Below, in pieces: positions 31,381 through 40,532 of a stretch of 64,000 nucleotides of DNA. Origin of the DNA: Siphonobacter curvatus (GTDB taxonomy: Bacteria; Bacteroidota; Bacteroidia; Cytophagales; Spirosomataceae). Made by a program: the position numbers and the translations under genes. The notes under the pieces are model-generated. The model saw only the letters and a program-made list of their open reading frames with translations. It searched no databases and was not told the DNA's origin. The stretch is taken from positions 744,001 through 808,000 of the forward strand of contig NZ_PTRA01000001.1 of the NCBI RefSeq assembly GCF_002943425.1. Direction: 5' to 3'. Positions within the stretch are counted from its first letter, which is position 1, and every line of letters starts with the position of its first letter.

Positions 31381-33033
31381 ATGCAGGATCAGAGCTACTG
31401 GGGAACCATTAAACGCGGCATACAATCCAGCCTGAAAGGACTTCAAATTTCCCTGCGACATTTGAAAGATTCCACGCGGCGGCGTAAGCCCATTTATGTG
31501 GACGACCCGAATTATTTTGAACAAGACACGGGAATGGTAACCCTGCGGTATCCGTACGAAGCCATTCCAGTTCCCGATAATGGACGATACCGGCTCCATA
31601 ATGAAATGGACGACTGTATCGTCTGCGATAAGTGTGCGAAAGTTTGTCCGGTGGATTGCATCGAGATCGAACCCATTCGAGCCACGGGCGAGGTGGGGAA
31701 AGCCTCCGATGGATCAGCGATTCGCTTGTTTGCAGCCAAATTTGACATCGACATGGCCAAGTGCTGCTACTGCGGCCTGTGCACGACCGTCTGCCCGACG
31801 GAGTGCCTGACCATGACGAAAACGTACGATTATTCGGAGTTTGACATTCGGGACATGGTTTACCATTTCACGAATCTCACGCCCGAAAAAGCCGAAGAGA
31901 AGAAACAGCTTTACGAACAATTCGTGGCCGAAAAAGAAGCGGCCAAGACCAGTAAGCCCGTTGTAGCGAAAGAAAAAGAAACGCAGCCCGCAGCTCGTCC
32001 GACCTTTAAGCCTAGCTTGAAGAAAACGACCGAAGACGCAACTCCGGAAGTACAGGCGGAACGAAGTGAAGAGGCGAAACCCGCCCGTCCCGCGTTCAAA
32101 CCTGGATTCAAGAAAACGGCTGAACCTACGGAACCGGAAACAACTGAACCGAACGAGGCGAAACCGGCTCGACCTGCATTTAAGCCTGGGTTTAAAAAAA
32201 CTACGGAGGAACCAGCGGTACAGCCCGAAGCAACCGAAGAAGATCGACCCGCTCGTCCGGCATTCAAACCTGGATTCAAAAAGCCGACGACTGAACCTAC
32301 GCAATCGGAATCCGAATCAACAGAAGAGGCAAAACCTGCCCGCCCAGCGTTCAAGCCCGGATTTAAGAAAACGACCGTAGAAGCCAAGGCTCCGGAGGAG
32401 ATTCCGGAGAAAACGGAAACGCCGGCGGAACCCGAAGCGAAAACGCCGACGAGTTTTAAACCGAACTTTAAGCGAAAAGAAACCGAGCCGACGGTAGAAG
32501 AACCGATTCAGCTGGAACCTGCCGCATCGGTAGAAACCCCTGATGAACCGCCGATAGCCAAAAGCTTTAAGCCGGTATTCAAGAAAAAAACGGCGGAACC
32601 CGAAGAAACGAAGGTAGAAGAACCAATGCCTGAGGTACCCGCGGAACAGCCCGTAACGAAAAGTTTTAAACCCGTCTTCAAAAAGAAAACGGAAACCGAG
32701 CCGACGTCCGAAGCTCCCGCCGAAGAAGCTCCTGTACAAGAGAGCTTCAAGCCCGTGTTCAAAAAGACTGCTACGCCTGCAGCCGAGGTGCCAAAAGCCG
32801 TAGAAGAGCCCGCCGCACCGGAGCCTGAAGAACCCAAAGCGGAAGAGCCGGTACGGAAAAGCTTCAAGCCCGTCTTTAAAAAGAAGGCTGATGAACCCGC
32901 CGTTGCGGAACCCGTAAGTGAGGCTAGCCAGCCGGAACAAACGCCTGAAGTAAAGCCCGAAGAACCCGAAACGCCCAAACCCGGCGGCGGCAAATCATTC
33001 AAGCCCGTATTCAAACGACCCAATCAAGAATGA
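31381..33033 (+). CDS. nuoI: NADH-quinone oxidoreductase subunit I with long repetitive C-terminal tail
   Basis: Complex I subunit carrying clusters N6a and N6b. Residues 1-~190 are a normal NuoI: C79, C82, C85, C89P and C128, C131, C134, C138P form two 4Fe-4S sites. From ~200 to 550 follows a Pro/Glu/Lys-rich, probably disordered tail with eleven copies of [TAS]FKPx[FL]K[KR] separated by acidic linkers. Normal NuoI is ~160-220 aa, so the tail more than doubles the protein. The stop overlaps the nuoJ start (ATGA), and the frame is continuous, so the tail is genuinely part of this gene. Confidence 0.93.
   Translation: MQDQSYWGTIKRGIQSSLKGLQISLRHLKDSTRRRKPIYVDDPNYFEQDTGMVTLRYPYEAIPVPDNGRYRLHNEMDDCIVCDKCAKVCPVDCIEIEPIRATGEVGKASDGSAIRLFAAKFDIDMAKCCYCGLCTTVCPTECLTMTKTYDYSEFDIRDMVYHFTNLTPEKAEEKKQLYEQFVAEKEAAKTSKPVVAKEKETQPAARPTFKPSLKKTTEDATPEVQAERSEEAKPARPAFKPGFKKTAEPTEPETTEPNEAKPARPAFKPGFKKTTEEPAVQPEATEEDRPARPAFKPGFKKPTTEPTQSESESTEEAKPARPAFKPGFKKTTVEAKAPEEIPEKTETPAEPEAKTPTSFKPNFKRKETEPTVEEPIQLEPAASVETPDEPPIAKSFKPVFKKKTAEPEETKVEEPMPEVPAEQPVTKSFKPVFKKKTETEPTSEAPAEEAPVQESFKPVFKKTATPAAEVPKAVEEPAAPEPEEPKAEEPVRKSFKPVFKKKADEPAVAEPVSEASQPEQTPEVKPEEPETPKPGGGKSFKPVFKRPNQE
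31999..33030 (+). repeat. Tandem degenerate repeat coding for the NuoI tail
   Basis: Eleven units, each starting with [TAS]FKPx[FL]K[KR]. Units 2-5 have the form PARPAFKPGFKK and are spaced ~28-29 codons; units 7-11 have the form SFKPVFKK with longer, more variable acidic linkers. The change in type at unit 6 suggests two rounds of duplication. Minus-strand open frames here are mirror images of the repeat. Confidence 0.9.
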
Positions 33034-33569
33034 CCGCTTTTGTGTTTCTATTTTTTGTTATGCTGACCATCGCGTCGGCGGCGGTGGTGCTGATCAGTCG
33101 AAACGTACTGTATTCGGCGTTTAGCCTGATGGTCACGTTTCTGGGTATTGCGGCACTGTACGTATTCGCTGGAGCTGATTTTCTGGCCGTTACGCAGATT
33201 ATGGTGTACGTAGGAGGAATTCTGGTACTGCTGGTATTTGGCGTCATGTTAACCCGAAACAAAGCGGATCGGGGTACGGGTCAGGCCAACGTCATTCGAA
33301 CCGAACATAGTCGTACCTTCTGGGGCATACTGACGGCTGGAGGTATCTTCGCCATTCTGTCGACGATTTTGGCCAAAGCTCGCTTCGATACAGTCGAACG
33401 TAATCACTTTGAATTGATCGAGCGTAAAACAACGATTCAGGAGCTGGGAATTGGCTTACTTACGGATTATGCGTTGCCCTTTGAAGTCGCTGGTATTTTA
33501 CTGATGGTAGCCTTACTGGGAGCGGCGTACTTATCCGGCAAAGCAAAAAATTTCGGTACGAAAGAATAA
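33030..33569 (+). CDS. nuoJ: NADH-quinone oxidoreductase subunit J
   Basis: Membrane subunit of complex I, 179 aa with five hydrophobic helices. The conserved stretch ASAAVVLISRNVLYSAFSLM, FLAVTQIMVYVGGILVLLVFGVM (the pi-bulge helix TM3) and the final GAAYLSGK are typical. ATG overlaps the nuoI stop, indicating translational coupling. Confidence 0.93.
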   Translation: MTAFVFLFFVMLTIASAAVVLISRNVLYSAFSLMVTFLGIAALYVFAGADFLAVTQIMVYVGGILVLLVFGVMLTRNKADRGTGQANVIRTEHSRTFWGILTAGGIFAILSTILAKARFDTVERNHFELIERKTTIQELGIGLLTDYALPFEVAGILLMVALLGAAYLSGKAKNFGTKE

Positions 33570-33576
33570 CACCCGT

Positions 33577-33882
33577 ATGCAAATTCCACTTTCTTATTTC
33601 CTGCTAACGGCGGCCTTACTGTTCAGTATCGGCTTGGCCGTAGTCATTGTCAAGCGAAATGCCATTGTCGTACTGATGGGCATTGAACTGATGCTCAACG
33701 CGGCTAATCTTAATCTGGTGGCTTTCAGTCGCTTTGATACGGATTTGACCGGGCAGTTTTTCAGTCTCTTCGTAATCATTGTAGCAGCGGCCGAAATTGT
33801 GGTAGCTCTGGCAATCGTACTGAAAGTTTTTCAACACTTCCAAACGGTACAACTGGACGAAGTTTCCGAACTAAAAGATTAG
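33577..33882 (+). CDS. nuoK: NADH-quinone oxidoreductase subunit K
   Basis: Membrane subunit of 101 aa with three helices. The proton-channel glutamates lie in MGIELMLNAANLNLVAF and VAAAEIVVALAIVL. It starts 7 bp after nuoJ. It is followed by a bidirectional terminator, so the nuoIJK unit ends here and the remaining membrane subunits are transcribed separately. Confidence 0.94.
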   Translation: MQIPLSYFLLTAALLFSIGLAVVIVKRNAIVVLMGIELMLNAANLNLVAFSRFDTDLTGQFFSLFVIIVAAAEIVVALAIVLKVFQHFQTVQLDEVSELKD

Positions 33883-33937: not shown

Positions 33938-33973
33938 AAAAAAAGGCTGGTACTCATGGACCAGCCTTTTTTT
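33938..33973. terminator. Bidirectional terminator between nuoK and the DUF2911 gene
   Basis: AAAAAGGCTGGT/ACCAGCCTTTTT hairpin with T-tract on one side and A-tract on the other. The stop codon of the minus-strand DUF2911 gene (33972) lies at its edge. Confidence 0.9.
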
Positions 33974-34514
33974 ATTGGGTACGAATCGGAACCGCTACTT
34001 CCGTATGATCCCAGTGGAGTACCAGATCAGTACCGCCCGTTTGGGGCATAAAGCTTATTTCAAAAAGTTCTTGCACTTCTGGTACCTGATGGGAAGGCAC
34101 AGCGGCACGAAAGAGGTCTTTGGATGCATCGTATTCCGTACCCCACTGACCCGTTTCCTGATTGATGACTACTTGCCAGTCCTGCGGTCCGGGGATGGTC
34201 CAGAGCGTATATTCGCCCGCTTTTAGAGGGTGCCCGGCCAGCGTTACATTGTGATTGACGGTCAGTTTCGTGGCTTCGTTAGCTCCCGTCCGCCAGACTT
34301 TTCCGTAGGGAACCAGGGCACGCGTGGAAGAATCACCAAAAATGGTTCGTCCTTTTTTGGCAGGCTGGCAGTAGGTAACTTCCAGGCGAAGTCCGTTTTG
34401 GTTGAAACGAGCATGAGCCTCCTGACTTAAAGGCTTGGCGTACTGCTTGTACAGAAACGCCGAAAGTGCCGCCAGTCCACCTACGACAACCAGAGCAATG
34501 ATTACTTTTTTCAT
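33972..34514 (-). CDS. DUF2911 family protein
   Basis: Envelope protein of 180 aa with an N-terminal membrane helix (residues 3-21, VIIALVVVGGLAALSAFLY) and one DUF2911 domain: LEVTYCQPAKKGRTIFGD, PYGKVWRTGANEATKLTVN and LKAGEYTLWTIPG. The function of the family is unknown. A second member is encoded at 48.6-49.5 kb with the same motifs. It lies between nuoK and nuoL on the opposite strand. Confidence 0.88.
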   Translation of the reverse strand: MKKVIIALVVVGGLAALSAFLYKQYAKPLSQEAHARFNQNGLRLEVTYCQPAKKGRTIFGDSSTRALVPYGKVWRTGANEATKLTVNHNVTLAGHPLKAGEYTLWTIPGPQDWQVVINQETGQWGTEYDASKDLFRAAVPSHQVPEVQELFEISFMPQTGGTDLVLHWDHTEVAVPIRTQ

Positions 34515-34683: not shown

Positions 34684-35235
34684 TTAAATCGTTCCCAGTA
34701 CGCAACGTTCTCCAGCCAGCAAAGGTAAATCCTCTTCGACAGCCAGACTGGTTTTTGCGTTATTTAATTCATTCTGATAGGCTTTCCGGATTTCTTTTCG
34801 CTTTAAAGCTTCCAGAAAACGACGGGCATCTTCGCGGGTTTCCAGCAATAAAGGCGGCACTAGTGTAGGCTGATTAGTTTCTTCATCTTTGGCGACCATG
34901 GTAAAATAACTGGTATTCGTATGGACCTTTTCGCCCGTCTTGATGGATTCGGCAATGACCCGAATCCCTACGATCAAGGAGCTTTTTCCAACATAATTGA
35001 CCGAAGCCAGCAACGATACCAGTTGCCCCACTTCCACGGGCTGTAAAAACTCCACGTGATCAACGGCTACTGTAACTACGTACGTACTGGCATGTTTGGA
35101 TGCACAGGCGTAGGCCGCTTTATCCATTAATGACAAAAGAATACCGCCGTGGATCTTGCCGCCGAAATTGGCATAGCTCGGAATCATCAGTTCGGTAATG
35201 GTAGTCTGGGAATATGAAACAGATTTAGGCTCCAC
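34684..35235 (-). CDS. Acyl-CoA thioesterase, hotdog fold (YciA/BACH type)
   Basis: Hydrolase of 183 aa for acyl-CoA thioesters. The core NFGGKIHGGILLSLMDKAAYACASKHA carries the catalytic-region Gly-Gly and Asp of the family, and VDHVEFLQPVEVGQLVSL the second hotdog strand pair. The C-terminal ~40 residues (Arg/Glu-rich helix) follow the fold. The start is GTG at 35235 (GTG GAG CCT); no ATG fits before the fold. It is divergent from nuoL; the shared 192-bp gap holds a large palindrome. Confidence 0.88.
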   Translation of the reverse strand: MEPKSVSYSQTTITELMIPSYANFGGKIHGGILLSLMDKAAYACASKHASTYVVTVAVDHVEFLQPVEVGQLVSLLASVNYVGKSSLIVGIRVIAESIKTGEKVHTNTSYFTMVAKDEETNQPTLVPPLLLETREDARRFLEALKRKEIRKAYQNELNNAKTSLAVEEDLPLLAGERCVLGTI

Positions 35236-35427: not shown

Positions 35428-37281
35428 ATGAACCCCGAACTACTGCTCTGGATCACCTTGCTTTTGCCGTTCGCTGGGTTTTTACTGCTTATACTTTCGG
35501 GGAAAAAAGCCAATACACCAGCGGGCTGGTTGGGGCTGGGATTATCCGCTTCAGGATTGGCCCTTTCCTATCTATTAACTGATCAGGACGTTACGGCCGT
35601 TGCTTATCCCTGGCTTACGGCGAAACTCAGTTTCGGTTTTCGCGTCGATGAGCTGACGTTACGGATGCTGCGACTGGTGCTGTTTATCGCCTCGCTCGTG
35701 CAGCTTTTTTCCATTGAATACATGCGGGAAGACGCCGCCCGCTTTCGGTATTTTGGCTTTCTACAGTTGTTTGTCGGTTCGATGTTGGGCATTGTACTGG
35801 CCCATAATTTACTCGTCTTATACGTCTTCTGGGAATTGGTAGGGCTAAGCTCGTACCTGCTGATTGGCTTCTGGTTCACGAAAAAAGAGGCCATTGCCGC
35901 TTCCAAAAAAGCTTTTTTGGTTAACCGAGTCGGGGACGTCGGGCTGGCTCTGGGCGTATTTGGTGTCTATCATCGCTTCGGCACCCTCGACTTTTCGACG
36001 TTCGCGGGGATGGCCGAAGGGTCCGATCCGTACCTGACGGCGATCGGACTGTTACTATTCTGCGGTACCATTGCTAAATCGGCTCAGTTTCCCCTGCACA
36101 TTTGGTTACCCGACGCCATGGAAGGGCCAACTCCCGTATCGGCCCTGATTCATGCGGCTACGATGGTTGCGGCTGGCGTATACCTGCTTGCTCGAATTTT
36201 CCCAATCCTGACGCCCGACGCCTTAGTCGTTATTGCCAGTATCGGAACCATTACGATGGTAATGGGAGCCGTGTACGCCCTCTCGCAAACCGATATTAAG
36301 AAAACGCTGGCCTATTCCACCATTTCCCAACTCGGTCTGATGGTACTGGCCTTGGGGGTAGGGGCTCCGCAGGCGGCTCTGTTTCATCTGTTTACGCACG
36401 CTTTCTTCAAAGCGGGTTTGTTTTTGTCTTCGGGTTCAGTCATTCACTCACTGCACCACGCGGGTCACGGATTCGACGCTCAGGACGTACGCCTGATGGG
36501 CGGCTTACGGAAACAGTTACCCGTAACCTTTCTGGCTTATACGGTTTGTGCGGCGGCTCTGGCGGGATTGCCCCTGACGGCGGGATTCCTTTCGAAGGAT
36601 GAAATTCTGCACGAAGCCTTTACACATACGGCTCATTCCTGGCAACTGATTTTTCCCATTTTGGCTCTTATCTCAGCGGGTTTAACGGCCTTTTACATGG
36701 CGAAACAGTGGCGGATCGTCTTTTTCGGGAATTGGCGAAACCCAATCCTATCGCTGGATCAGGTCCATGAATCGTCTTGGCTGCAGAAAGGTCCGCTCGT
36801 AGGGCTGGCGTTATTATCGCTGCCTTTTGCGTTTTCAATTAATCCGCTGGGCGAGCACTTTGCTCCGCTGGTAGCCCTGGGTTCGACCGCCGTGGCAGTA
36901 GGAGGCATTGCCCTGGCCTGGATTCGTTACCGTTCGGTACCCGATGCGGAATCGTTACGGGATACGCCGCTCACCACTCTAGATGCTGTTTATCAACGCT
37001 TTTTCGTACAACCCGTACTCAAGTTTGCCCAATTCTGTACCTGGCTGGATCGGGTTGTGGTGGATGGCATCGTGGATGGAATTGCTAAACTACAGGTCAT
37101 TCTGGCTCATCTGGTGGGCTGGTTTGATCGGAATGTCATTGATGGCCTGGTGGCAGCTCTGGCCTGGTTGAGCCGAACGATGGGGGATACGACCCGTCAG
37201 GTGCAGAGTGGAAAAATTCAGTCGTACATCGTAGCGATGGTCATGGGACTGGCGGCTTTGCTGATCTGGTGGACCTGGTAG
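35428..37281 (+). CDS. nuoL: NADH-quinone oxidoreductase subunit L
   Basis: Antiporter-like proton-pumping subunit of 617 aa with about 15-16 helices. Motifs include LLVLYVFWELVGLSSYLLIGFW with the conserved Glu, TIAKSAQFPLHIWLPDAMEG, PTPVSALIHAATMVAAGVYL and AYSTISQLGLMVLALGVG. The C-terminal region includes the amphipathic lateral helix and a last TM (VAMVMGLAALLIWW). ATG at 35428. It starts the nuoLMN unit, apart from nuoIJK. Confidence 0.95.
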   Translation: MNPELLLWITLLLPFAGFLLLILSGKKANTPAGWLGLGLSASGLALSYLLTDQDVTAVAYPWLTAKLSFGFRVDELTLRMLRLVLFIASLVQLFSIEYMREDAARFRYFGFLQLFVGSMLGIVLAHNLLVLYVFWELVGLSSYLLIGFWFTKKEAIAASKKAFLVNRVGDVGLALGVFGVYHRFGTLDFSTFAGMAEGSDPYLTAIGLLLFCGTIAKSAQFPLHIWLPDAMEGPTPVSALIHAATMVAAGVYLLARIFPILTPDALVVIASIGTITMVMGAVYALSQTDIKKTLAYSTISQLGLMVLALGVGAPQAALFHLFTHAFFKAGLFLSSGSVIHSLHHAGHGFDAQDVRLMGGLRKQLPVTFLAYTVCAAALAGLPLTAGFLSKDEILHEAFTHTAHSWQLIFPILALISAGLTAFYMAKQWRIVFFGNWRNPILSLDQVHESSWLQKGPLVGLALLSLPFAFSINPLGEHFAPLVALGSTAVAVGGIALAWIRYRSVPDAESLRDTPLTTLDAVYQRFFVQPVLKFAQFCTWLDRVVVDGIVDGIAKLQVILAHLVGWFDRNVIDGLVAALAWLSRTMGDTTRQVQSGKIQSYIVAMVMGLAALLIWWTW

Positions 37282-37339: not shown

Positions 37340-38995
37340 ATGCCGATACTGACTACCCTTATAGCTTTACCTTTTCTCGGAGCGGTGCTGTTGTTACTGC
37401 TACCCGAGACAGCCCGCACCGCCTGCCGCTGGCTTACGGTGCTGTTGTGTACCGTTCATCTTGCCTTGAGTAGCTGGCTGTGGTTTCAGTTCGATCCGCA
37501 ACTGGTGGGGTATCAGTTCGCCGAAAATCACGACTGGATTACGATGGCTCTGGGGCAGTTCGGTATTATTTCCATTGATTATTCCGTAGGAACGGATGGG
37601 TTGAGCTTACCGATGGTCTGGCTGACGAGTCTGGTGATGTTGGTGGGAGCGGTATCTTCCTTCGAAATCAAGGAAAAAGAACGGGCGTATTATGCTTTGT
37701 ACCTGTTACTGATGGGTAGTGTGGTAGGCTGTTTCGTTGCTCTCGACCTGTTCCTGTTCTTCCTGTTCTTCGAATTCATGCTGCTGCCGATGTACTTTCT
37801 TATCGGTATCTGGGGTGGCCCCCGGCGGGAATACGCCAGTTTGAAATTCTTCATTTATACGCTGGCCGGTTCTGTATTCATTCTACTGGTGATGATTGGT
37901 TTGTACCTCTCAGTGATTGATCCGGTGGAGACGGCTTTGAACATTGGACTGGTACAGGATCGGGCCCAGATTACGGGAGACGTACTGGCCGAGGTACAAT
38001 CACTGGTGAGCCAGTTACAGATTGATCCGGCTCAGCTCGTTCATACTTTCGAGATCCCGTACCTTACGAATCCTCGCAATTTTGTGCCCGAGTCCCTGCT
38101 GAGTACCATGGCCGGTCACGAAATCTTCGGTTTATCGGCCCGGTTGCTGGCTTTTCTGATGCTCTTCATTGGTTTTGCCGTGAAGCTTCCGATGGTGCCC
38201 CTGCATACCTGGTTGCCCGATGCCCACGTGGAAGCTCCCACGCCGATTTCGGTCGTACTGGCAGGGATTTTGCTGAAAATTGGCGGATACGGATTCTTCC
38301 GGATTGCCTACGAAATCTTCCCCGACGGAGCCATTTACTTTGCCGACTGGATTGCCGGGCTGGGCGTCTTGAGTATCGTTTACGGAGCCTTCAATGCCCT
38401 AAGTCAGAAAGATCTCAAACGGCTCATTGCCTATTCTTCCGTTTCGCACATGGGCTTTGTGTTACTGGGCTTAGCGGCCCTCACGCCCGAGGGAGCCAAT
38501 GCGGCCATCTATCAGCTGTTTTCGCACGGTATTCTTTCACCCATGCTGTTTCTGGTGGTGGGTGTGGTGTACGCCCGAACGCACGACCGGAACATTGACC
38601 ATTATCAGGGACTCGCCAGTACCATGCCTGCCTATACGGGTTTGACAGCCATCGCTTTTTTTGCTTCCCTGGGTTTACCCGGTTTCTCGGGTTTTATCGG
38701 AGAATTTTTTAGTCTGATGGGAGCCTTTAACTCGCTGTACATTCCCGTGTGGATGGTGGTAGCGGGGGGCTTTGGTTTGATTCTGGGAGCGGGCTATTTC
38801 CTCTGGACCTTCCAGCGGGTCTTTCTGGGCAAACGCTGGTCCACGCACGACGCCCAGTTGTTGACGGATCTCAATGTTCGGGAAAAACTCATGCTGATAC
38901 CTCTAGCACTGCTTTCTCTGTTTTTCGGAATACTCCCGGGCACCGTATTCGCCATTACCGAAGGTTACGTCCTGGAGTTCATGAAACACTTTTAA
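37340..38995 (+). CDS. nuoM: NADH-quinone oxidoreductase subunit M
   Basis: Antiporter-like subunit of 551 aa with about 14 helices. Motifs: LFLFFLFFEFMLLPMYFLIG with the key Glu, FAVKLPMVPLHTWLPDAHVE with the pumping Lys, APTPISVVLAGILLKIGGYG and AYSSVSHMGFVLLGLAAL. An insert near residues 200-255 (QDRAQITGDVLAEVQSL and following) lengthens it compared with E. coli NuoM (509 aa). It lies 58 bp after nuoL. Confidence 0.95.
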   Translation: MPILTTLIALPFLGAVLLLLLPETARTACRWLTVLLCTVHLALSSWLWFQFDPQLVGYQFAENHDWITMALGQFGIISIDYSVGTDGLSLPMVWLTSLVMLVGAVSSFEIKEKERAYYALYLLLMGSVVGCFVALDLFLFFLFFEFMLLPMYFLIGIWGGPRREYASLKFFIYTLAGSVFILLVMIGLYLSVIDPVETALNIGLVQDRAQITGDVLAEVQSLVSQLQIDPAQLVHTFEIPYLTNPRNFVPESLLSTMAGHEIFGLSARLLAFLMLFIGFAVKLPMVPLHTWLPDAHVEAPTPISVVLAGILLKIGGYGFFRIAYEIFPDGAIYFADWIAGLGVLSIVYGAFNALSQKDLKRLIAYSSVSHMGFVLLGLAALTPEGANAAIYQLFSHGILSPMLFLVVGVVYARTHDRNIDHYQGLASTMPAYTGLTAIAFFASLGLPGFSGFIGEFFSLMGAFNSLYIPVWMVVAGGFGLILGAGYFLWTFQRVFLGKRWSTHDAQLLTDLNVREKLMLIPLALLSLFFGILPGTVFAITEGYVLEFMKHF

Positions 38996-39065: not shown

Positions 39066-40532
39066 ATGCTTCAAAAACTCGACCACATTCTGGCCAGTCT
39101 TTCCGGCTTCACTCCCGAAGTTTGGCTGGTAGTGGCTTTTGTGGGAATTATTACCTGGGATTTAATTGCTCCCGAAGTACACGCCGAAAGTCGGGGGGGA
39201 TTCTTTCACGGACTGACCTTTCTGGCCTTTGCTTTTCTGGGAGTATTGCTGGTGCAACAGTGGCAGATACAGCCGCGGGGCGTCCTGTTTGGATCCATGC
39301 TGCGGCTCGACGACCGGGCTATTTTCTTTAAGCTACTGGTGACGCTGACCGCTCTAATTACCATTTTACACAGTTGGGTGACGGGACGGCGGTGGTCGGG
39401 CGAATTTTTCTCCGTACTCGTCGGCACGGTATTCGGATTGCTGGTGCTGTCGATGGCTACGAATCTGCTGATGGTGTACCTTTCTCTGGAAGTCGTATCC
39501 ATTTCTAGTTACATCCTCACCGCCCTTCGCGGCGACCGGAAAAGCTCCGAGGGGGGTATGAAATACGTGCTGTTCGGGTCCGTCGCATCGGCCCTGATGC
39601 TGTACGGAATGAGTCTGTTGTATGGCCTGACCAGTACGCTTGATTTCACCAATCCGAGCTTTAGTCGGGCGTTGCTCGAAACCGATCCGCTGGTATCGGC
39701 GTCGGCCATTTTACTGGCGATCAGTGGGTTACTTTTCAAGGTTTCGGCGGTACCCTTTCAGGTCTGGAATCCCGACGTCTATGAAGCAGCTGACACACCC
39801 GTCGTTTCCTTTTTTTCGGTAGCACCGAAGGCGGTGGCTTTTCTGGTTTTGATGCGTTTATTTAGCGTACTGCCATTGAATTTCCAGCCCGTACTAGCCG
39901 TGCTTTCGCTGGCCACCATTACCGTAGGCAATTTCTCGGCCCTGTGGCAAACCGAAGCCAAGCGACTCATGGCGTATTCTTCCATTGCTCAGTCGGGGTT
40001 TGTTCTGGTGGGTTTAGTGGCTTTTTCGGAATTGGGTCAGCAAACGGCTACGTTCTACCTGGGGAGTTATGTCTTCGCCAGTATGGCCTGCTTTCTGCTG
40101 ATTGACATTTTATCGACGTCCCGTTCGAAAAATGAAGTACCCATTCAAAGTTTTAGTGGGGTAGGGCGGCAACAGCCGTTACCCGCTATTTTGCTCAGTA
40201 TCGCTTTTATTTCGCTGGTAGGCTTGCCGTTGACGGTTGGATTTTCGGCCAAGCTACTCATCTTTAGTTCGCTCTGGGAGGCGTATCAGCATACGAACGC
40301 ATCGCTCTTCCTGGTACTGTTCGTCTTTGGCTTGCTCAATACGGCGGTTTCCCTGGCTTTTTACGTGAAAATTCCTTACGCCCTATTCTTCAAAACAGCC
40401 GAACCGGGGCAACCCCTGGTATCGCTCCGCTGGCCGCAGGTGATCCTCGCTCTGGTGCTGGTAATTCCCATTATTGCCCTGTTCCTGCGTACGGATTGGC
40501 TGATGAACTGGATTGCGGGGTTTGTTAATTAG
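39066..40532 (+). CDS. nuoN: NADH-quinone oxidoreductase subunit N
   Basis: Antiporter-like subunit of 488 aa with about 14 helices. Motifs: NLLMVYLSLEVVSISSYIL with the conserved Glu, GLLFKVSAVPFQVWNPDVYE with the pumping Lys, APKAVAFLVLMRL and AYSSIAQSGFVLVGLVAF. It lies 70 bp after nuoM and ends the unit. Confidence 0.95.
   Translation: MLQKLDHILASLSGFTPEVWLVVAFVGIITWDLIAPEVHAESRGGFFHGLTFLAFAFLGVLLVQQWQIQPRGVLFGSMLRLDDRAIFFKLLVTLTALITILHSWVTGRRWSGEFFSVLVGTVFGLLVLSMATNLLMVYLSLEVVSISSYILTALRGDRKSSEGGMKYVLFGSVASALMLYGMSLLYGLTSTLDFTNPSFSRALLETDPLVSASAILLAISGLLFKVSAVPFQVWNPDVYEAADTPVVSFFSVAPKAVAFLVLMRLFSVLPLNFQPVLAVLSLATITVGNFSALWQTEAKRLMAYSSIAQSGFVLVGLVAFSELGQQTATFYLGSYVFASMACFLLIDILSTSRSKNEVPIQSFSGVGRQQPLPAILLSIAFISLVGLPLTVGFSAKLLIFSSLWEAYQHTNASLFLVLFVFGLLNTAVSLAFYVKIPYALFFKTAEPGQPLVSLRWPQVILALVLVIPIIALFLRTDWLMNWIAGFVN

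Follow-up and report, generated by a model that had tools for sequence, protein, structure and literature searches.

A repeated-motif tail on a second, divergent NuoI of Siphonobacter curvatus and its possible role as a docking line on an 11-subunit complex I

The window analyzed here, a 64,000 nt stretch of the Siphonobacter curvatus genome (GCF_002943425.1, contig NZ_PTRA01000001.1, positions 744,001-808,000 of the forward strand), carries a complex I gene, nuoI2, whose product continues past its iron-sulfur core into a long tail of short, repeated motifs. The features at this locus, in window coordinates, are as follows.

31381..33033, + strand: nuoI2, a second, tailed NuoI of 550 aa (open reading frame; Fer4 domains; NuoI models below their cut-offs)
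31381..31965, + strand: NuoI core with two 4Fe-4S motifs at residues 79-90 and 128-139 (invariant Cys columns; Pfam)
within 31381..31965, + strand: predicted helix, core residues 168-191 (low-confidence model)
31966..33030, + strand: low-complexity tail of 355 aa with eleven motifs, a net charge of -8 and neither Cys nor Trp (composition; coil in the low-confidence model)
32005..32022, + strand: motif 1, FKPSLK
32095..32112, + strand: motif 2, FKPGFK
32179..32196, + strand: motif 3, FKPGFK
32263..32280, + strand: motif 4, FKPGFK
32350..32367, + strand: motif 5, FKPGFK
32455..32472, + strand: motif 6, FKPNFK
32566..32583, + strand: motif 7, FKPVFK
32665..32682, + strand: motif 8, FKPVFK
32746..32763, + strand: motif 9, FKPVFK
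32863..32880, + strand: motif 10, FKPVFK
32998..33015, + strand: motif 11, FKPVFK, which begins 11 residues from the C-terminal end; relatives widely retain a terminal copy
33030..33569, + strand: nuoJ2 (open reading frame, Pfam)
33577..33882, + strand: nuoK2 (open reading frame, Pfam)
35428..37281, + strand: nuoL2 (open reading frame, Pfam)
37340..38995, + strand: nuoM2 (open reading frame, Pfam)
39066..40532, + strand: nuoN2 (open reading frame, Pfam)

In the list of open reading frames, nuoI2 extends from an ATG at 31381 to a TGA stop at 33031-33033, and the nuoJ2 ATG at 33030 shares the sequence ATGA with that stop, bearing out the initial annotation, according to which the frame stays open through the tail up to nuoJ. 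Two reverse-strand genes (33972-34514 and 34684-35235) separate nuoK2 from nuoL2. Both CxxCxxCxxxCP 4Fe-4S motifs of the NuoI family are present in NuoI2 and were invariant among 32 aligned proteins. The best-scoring NCBIfam NuoI model, TIGR01971, gave 81.4 bits against a curated cut-off of 113.05; the further NuoI models also fell below their cut-offs (among the 25 of 38 models listed), and a Pfam scan returned the Fe-S domains and no further match. We call the protein a divergent NuoI because of the gene order I-J-K-L-M-N and its matches to solved NdhI and NuoI proteins. Antisense open reading frames of 158-207 aa opposite the tail were taken to be mirror frames of the repeats.

Long open frames proved to be the usual state among relatives, as a search of the family matched 191 of 200 genomes at E <= 1e-20 with open frames of 241-832 aa among the matches listed. 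Three other Siphonobacter have open frames of 552-625 aa, and a fourth has one of 475 aa with N in the sequence. In genome G060 (the same contig as locus L048), whose core is 100% identical to that of the window, a single-base insertion in the tail stops the frame at 382 aa; the remaining internal indels of this tail are multiples of 3, and the motifs continue in the following frame. The insertion lies in a draft genome and may be an assembly error or a real truncation. A sequencing or frame artifact as the origin of the tail was ruled out by the long open frames in relatives together with the frame-preserving indels. Runs of N occur within the repeat tails at three loci (L008, L030, and L137); such arrays seem hard to assemble, so copy numbers in draft genomes may be off.

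The 355 residues that follow residue 195 contain FKPx[FL]K eleven times, starting at residues 209, 239, 267, 295, 324, 359, 396, 429, 456, 495, and 540, with copies 27-45 residues apart. The initial annotation had likewise counted eleven copies. Shuffling these residues 10,000 times gave 0.005 motifs on average and never more than 1. Each of the 21 phenylalanines of the tail falls inside a motif segment, and the charges sum to +37 over the motif segments and -45 over the linkers, in keeping with the earlier description of an acidic chain with repeated basic-aromatic motifs. The two motif sub-types proposed there are also evident, FKPGFKK occurring first and FKPVFKK later, and both recur in other Siphonobacter. 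AlphaFold returned the entire tail as coil; since the model is of low confidence throughout, core included (mean pLDDT 51.9), it is on composition that the predicted disorder of the tail rests, and we regard the tail as probably disordered.

Tandem Repeats Finder reported 0 rows for the tail DNA, that is, no DNA array, and synonymous codons differ between motif copies. We conclude that the motifs are old, protein-level repeats; recent DNA duplication as the source of the tail is not supported. Scanning the genome with a back-translated motif pattern gave 22 forward matches, 11 of them the nuoI2 tail and 11 at scattered single places, and 10 reverse matches (a control pattern gave 15 forward and 5 reverse); the scan thus found scattered single matches and no second motif array elsewhere in the genome.

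We compared nonsynonymous divergence in motifs, linkers, and the 4Fe-4S core. Between the window and three other Siphonobacter, dN was 0.028-0.045 in motifs, 0.031-0.036 in the core, and 0.34-0.46 in linkers; among those three, the corresponding values were 0-0.028, 0.007-0.014, and 0.19-0.20. Against these congeners the motifs therefore evolve about as slowly as the core and the linkers roughly tenfold faster, a contrast that is somewhat exaggerated because one member of each pair served to define the motifs and alignment favors motif-to-motif pairing. Linker dN/dS was about 0.15 among the three other Siphonobacter (synonymous change being saturated or nearly so in many pairs), suggesting that linkers are looser than motifs but not free. 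Between the window and G060, the closest strain, dN was 0.013 in motifs (one change), 0 in the core, and 0.052 in linkers, and the contrast in dN/dS was weak (0.22 in motifs, on that one change, vs. 0.28 in linkers) because there are few changes.

The genome holds a second NuoI, and this one is canonical. Like NuoI2, the canonical NuoI (Nqo9) of the 14-subunit complex I belongs to the NuoI family and has two 4Fe-4S motifs, but here it is a protein of 172 aa with no tail, 28% identical to the tailed NuoI across 86 residues. The initial annotation had treated the tail as an extension of a normal NuoI, a view that does not hold: nuoI2 encodes the second, divergent NuoI. The canonical gene sits in an A-B-C-D-E-F-G-H-I-J cluster (L128), with K-L-M-N elsewhere (L131). 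In this cluster NuoG (L128 11438-12538) is just 366 aa long, with Pfam Fe-S domains at residues 2-213 and no Pfam match for a large C-terminal domain.

NuoI2 is encoded in the order I2-J2-K2-(two reverse genes)-L2-M2-N2, and the remaining genes of the second set were found as A2-B2-C2 at L133, D2 at L132, and H2 at L134, with Pfam in agreement. The genome thus has two NuoD, two NuoB, two NuoH, and two L/M/N sets, and A, B, C, D, H, and I-N are all represented in the second set. There is a single NuoF genome-wide, in the canonical A-J cluster; by this count of NuoF the second set would lack a NuoEFG module of its own. We conclude that the second set is an 11-subunit complex I without its own NuoF. 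Judging by gene content, NuoI2 is then the likely point at which electrons enter a "headless" complex I; the second complex may also make use of the canonical NuoEFG. A single match to NuoF was found in 188 family genomes and two matches in 9, 197 of 200 having one or the other. Two outgroup genomes (L200 and L212) have a single run A-B-C-D-H-I-J-K-L-M-N without E, F, or G, and H-I-J-K-L-M-N lie close together in six more regions (L193, L196, L204, L206, L208, and L209). The second complex I, kept as an eleven-gene run at L200 and L212, is scattered over four distant chromosomal places in S. curvatus.

Rhodobacter sphaeroides is a known case of a bacterium with two isozymes of complex I (PMC4859585). 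An 11-subunit complex I with the same subunit set, lacking NuoEFG, appears in partial texts on Desulfitobacterium (PMC11238625), where its donor is presented as an open question and a "docking platform" is proposed, and on Bacteroides fragilis (PMC7002350), where the donor is said to be unknown; those portions make no mention of a repeated-motif NuoI tail. The Siphonobacter set differs from these in occupying four chromosomal places and in standing beside a 14-subunit complex I. The ferredoxin-dependent NDH-1 of cyanobacteria and chloroplasts likewise lacks NuoEFG, and its subunits are the best solved relatives of I2, D2, and H2; for the canonical I1 and D1 the best solved relatives come from Thermus complex I. 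The best solved relatives of B2 are mitochondrial, not NDH-1, so that it is the likeness of I2, D2, and H2, and not that of B2, that would favor a ferredoxin-dependent, NDH-1-like second complex.

We then examined how widely the tail occurs. At E <= 1e-20, nuoI2 had matches in 234 of the 390 order-level genomes and in 136 of the 296 in a phylum sample, many of the latter distant and possibly other NuoI types. From these searches we assembled 148 loci (the best 30 family matches, the best 80 of 264 from another search, and 38 order-level places hand-picked for diversity), corresponding to 123 distinct proteins, of which 117 were usable after exclusion of L004 (broken frame), L068 (contig end), and L008, L026, L030, and L137 (N in the sequence). 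A tail of at least 20 residues was present in 111 of the 117, ranging from 22 to 588 aa and devoid of Cys, with a net charge of median +2 (range -9 to +41). The search for FKPxFK tails in NuoI of Cytophagales suggested initially was thus positive, and related motifs recur across families of the order. When counted as [FMILV][KR]Px[FMILVYA][KR], the generic motif occurred 0-17 times per tail (median 5; n=111). It lay within the last 25 residues of 95 of the 111 tails (vs. 0.6% of shuffles) and was absent from the end in 16, figures that describe selected loci and give no population estimate. Copy number differs between species, as the comparison proposed with the initial annotation showed: it was 10 to 13, on a loose motif, among four full-length Siphonobacter proteins. 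Runella motifs have drifted to FxPKKP, and two such tails (L023 and L076) have no generic motif. Because several short tails of 22-49 aa (L140, L142, L143, L153, and L156) have one motif near the end, the sequences suggest that a single terminal hook came first and multiplied later.

The tail was absent from all six proteins read from one family, f12, and these are all the tail-less proteins among the 117. In two f12 genomes, G329 (among the six proteins read) and G479, the gene lies in an H-I-J-K-L-M-N run, indicating that the complex as such can do without the tail. The f12 proteins form a well-supported clade in a core tree with a backbone too poorly supported to separate loss from ancestral absence. 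As outgroups, 18 places were fetched, and the search pattern gave 14 proteins (four f36 places gave none), which were compared by eye. NuoI proteins of f34, f47, and f68 (L176, L177, L178, L179, L189, and L190) carry two or three LSPMMAAKLAAKK-like basic repeats, a different motif; two PAFAP-like copies are present in f39; proteins of f23 and f31 are nearly or wholly tail-less; and tails in f51, f53, and f59 are without such basic repeats.

The initial annotation had proposed that the motifs are multivalent binding sites, which stands as the best general reading, although the specific ligands that it named, lipid head groups and supercomplex partners, are not separated from a soluble partner. 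Tentatively, and from sequence comparison, we favor the reading that the tail is a multivalent docking line for the electron donor, or for another partner, of the headless complex I. Electrons would enter this complex at NuoI2, a 4Fe-4S subunit, in the lack of an NADH-oxidizing head of its own. The flexible tail would carry many short basic, aromatic or hydrophobic hooks, [FMILV]-[KR]-P-x-[FMILV]-K, with acidic linkers between them; the hooks would bind an acidic soluble partner reversibly and in parallel and so keep it near the exposed Fe-S clusters. We infer both the binding and the donor as partner, the likeliest candidates being a carrier resembling ferredoxin or flavodoxin, or a soluble Fe-S flavoprotein that oxidizes NAD(P)H, and a chain of positive hooks would raise the local concentration of an acidic donor.

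One argument for this reading is that, in the headless cyanobacterial NDH-1L, a positive patch of NdhI and NdhH binds acidic ferredoxin, and positive hooks on the same subunit would fit such a role. In the structure, the hairpin loop of NdhI and a C-terminal fragment of NdhH bind the ferredoxin (PMC6992706), with no motif tail taking part; PMC9414918 places the site at NdhO, NdhV, and NdhS. NdhI matches the core of NuoI2 only. Further points in favor are the missing NuoF, the tail-less canonical NuoI, the slow change of the motifs, the motif near the C-terminus of most tails examined, and the separate basic repeats of f34, f47, and f68. Against the reading stand the mitochondrial likeness of B2, the tail-less f12 proteins, the constraint on linkers, the slight net acidity of the tail, the drifted Runella motifs, and the tails with no generic motif at their end.

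Alternatively, the motifs could tether the complex to the membrane or within a supercomplex by binding lipid head groups or other respiratory complexes. Lys or Arg combined with Phe, Met, or Ile suits interfacial binding, and multivalency and variable length fit as well, but we consider a tether unlikely: since the canonical NuoI encoded alongside lacks a tail, a tether would have to answer a need peculiar to the headless complex, and the proline-bearing hexamers would be unlike amphipathic helices, to judge from the coil in the low-confidence model. Self-association is a somewhat poorer candidate, in which the positive motifs of one tail would attract the negative linkers of another in a sticker-and-spacer manner and cluster complexes or help their assembly. 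Charge blocks, summing to +37 over motif segments and -45 over linkers, are what it would call for; tails with a single motif in 22-49 aa, though, would hardly cluster. Poorer again is near-neutral growth of repeats in a tolerated C-terminal region with no specific function. Such growth could account for the wide spread of the tail, from 0 to 17 motifs and 22 to 588 aa, and for the six f12 proteins without one; it sits badly with a motif dN about as low as that of the Fe-S core against three congeners, with related motifs recurring across Cytophagales families, and with copies that are unlike at the DNA level. Binding of RNA, ribosomes, or the nucleoid, for which the Lys-rich motifs alone speak, is very improbable given the strongly acidic linkers, the slightly negative tail as a whole, and the lack of any Pfam match beyond the Fe-S domains, and the earlier suggestion of RNA as a ligand thus found no specific support.

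If the tail is indeed a docking line, its donor may be a flavodoxin or a soluble flavoprotein, or else a ferredoxin that takes its electrons from NAD(P)H. POR_N, the 2-oxoacid:ferredoxin oxidoreductase domain, was matched in 0 of the 6 Siphonobacter genomes, which weakens the case for donor ferredoxin from 2-oxoacid oxidoreductases; it was matched in 40 of 200 family genomes. Comparison of 20 regions with nuo proteins, seven neighbor proteins being read, identified no partner gene by neighborhood. In f15, f19, and f12 a gene of about 630 aa lies beyond nuoN2 (L193, L196, L204, and L206), the L206 copy being 517 aa at the end of its stretch. These genes look like one family, presumably amidophosphoribosyltransferase (purF), and on that reading the gene was rejected as a partner of the tail.

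Among known systems, the closest architecture is that of RsxC/RnfC, where an array of basic motifs likewise follows at the C-terminus of an Fe-S protein belonging to a membrane redox complex. The E. coli RsxC array has six units, and copy number varies in Erwinia, with 0-5 copies in RsxC of Erwinia amylovora and no function given in the portion of PMC10587187 available. RsxC belongs to an unrelated complex, and its units are Ala-rich, ~30-40 aa long, and near identical, in contrast to FKPxFK motifs with diverged linkers; by eye, the motif and the host protein both differ between NuoI2 and the RsxC-type unit DPRKAAVEAAIARAKARK. Among the papers listed in searches of the open-licence PMC literature, none was on a NuoI tail of these bacteria.

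A broader proposal, of which we are doubtful, is that the entry subunit of headless complexes acquired donor-capture lines with different motifs at least twice in evolution, as FKPx[FMIL]K in Cytophagales and as LSPMMAAKLAAKK-like repeats in f34, f47, and f68, with RsxC as a third case. If true, this would be a general means, as yet undescribed, by which membrane redox pumps catch soluble electron carriers. For the Siphonobacter complex itself, a repeated, selected motif on the likely entry subunit is a ready bait with which the donor might be caught, and the tail-less canonical NuoI offers a within-cell control for donor capture. The tail would then offer a clear example, in a bacterium, of short motifs arrayed multivalently on a core respiratory enzyme.
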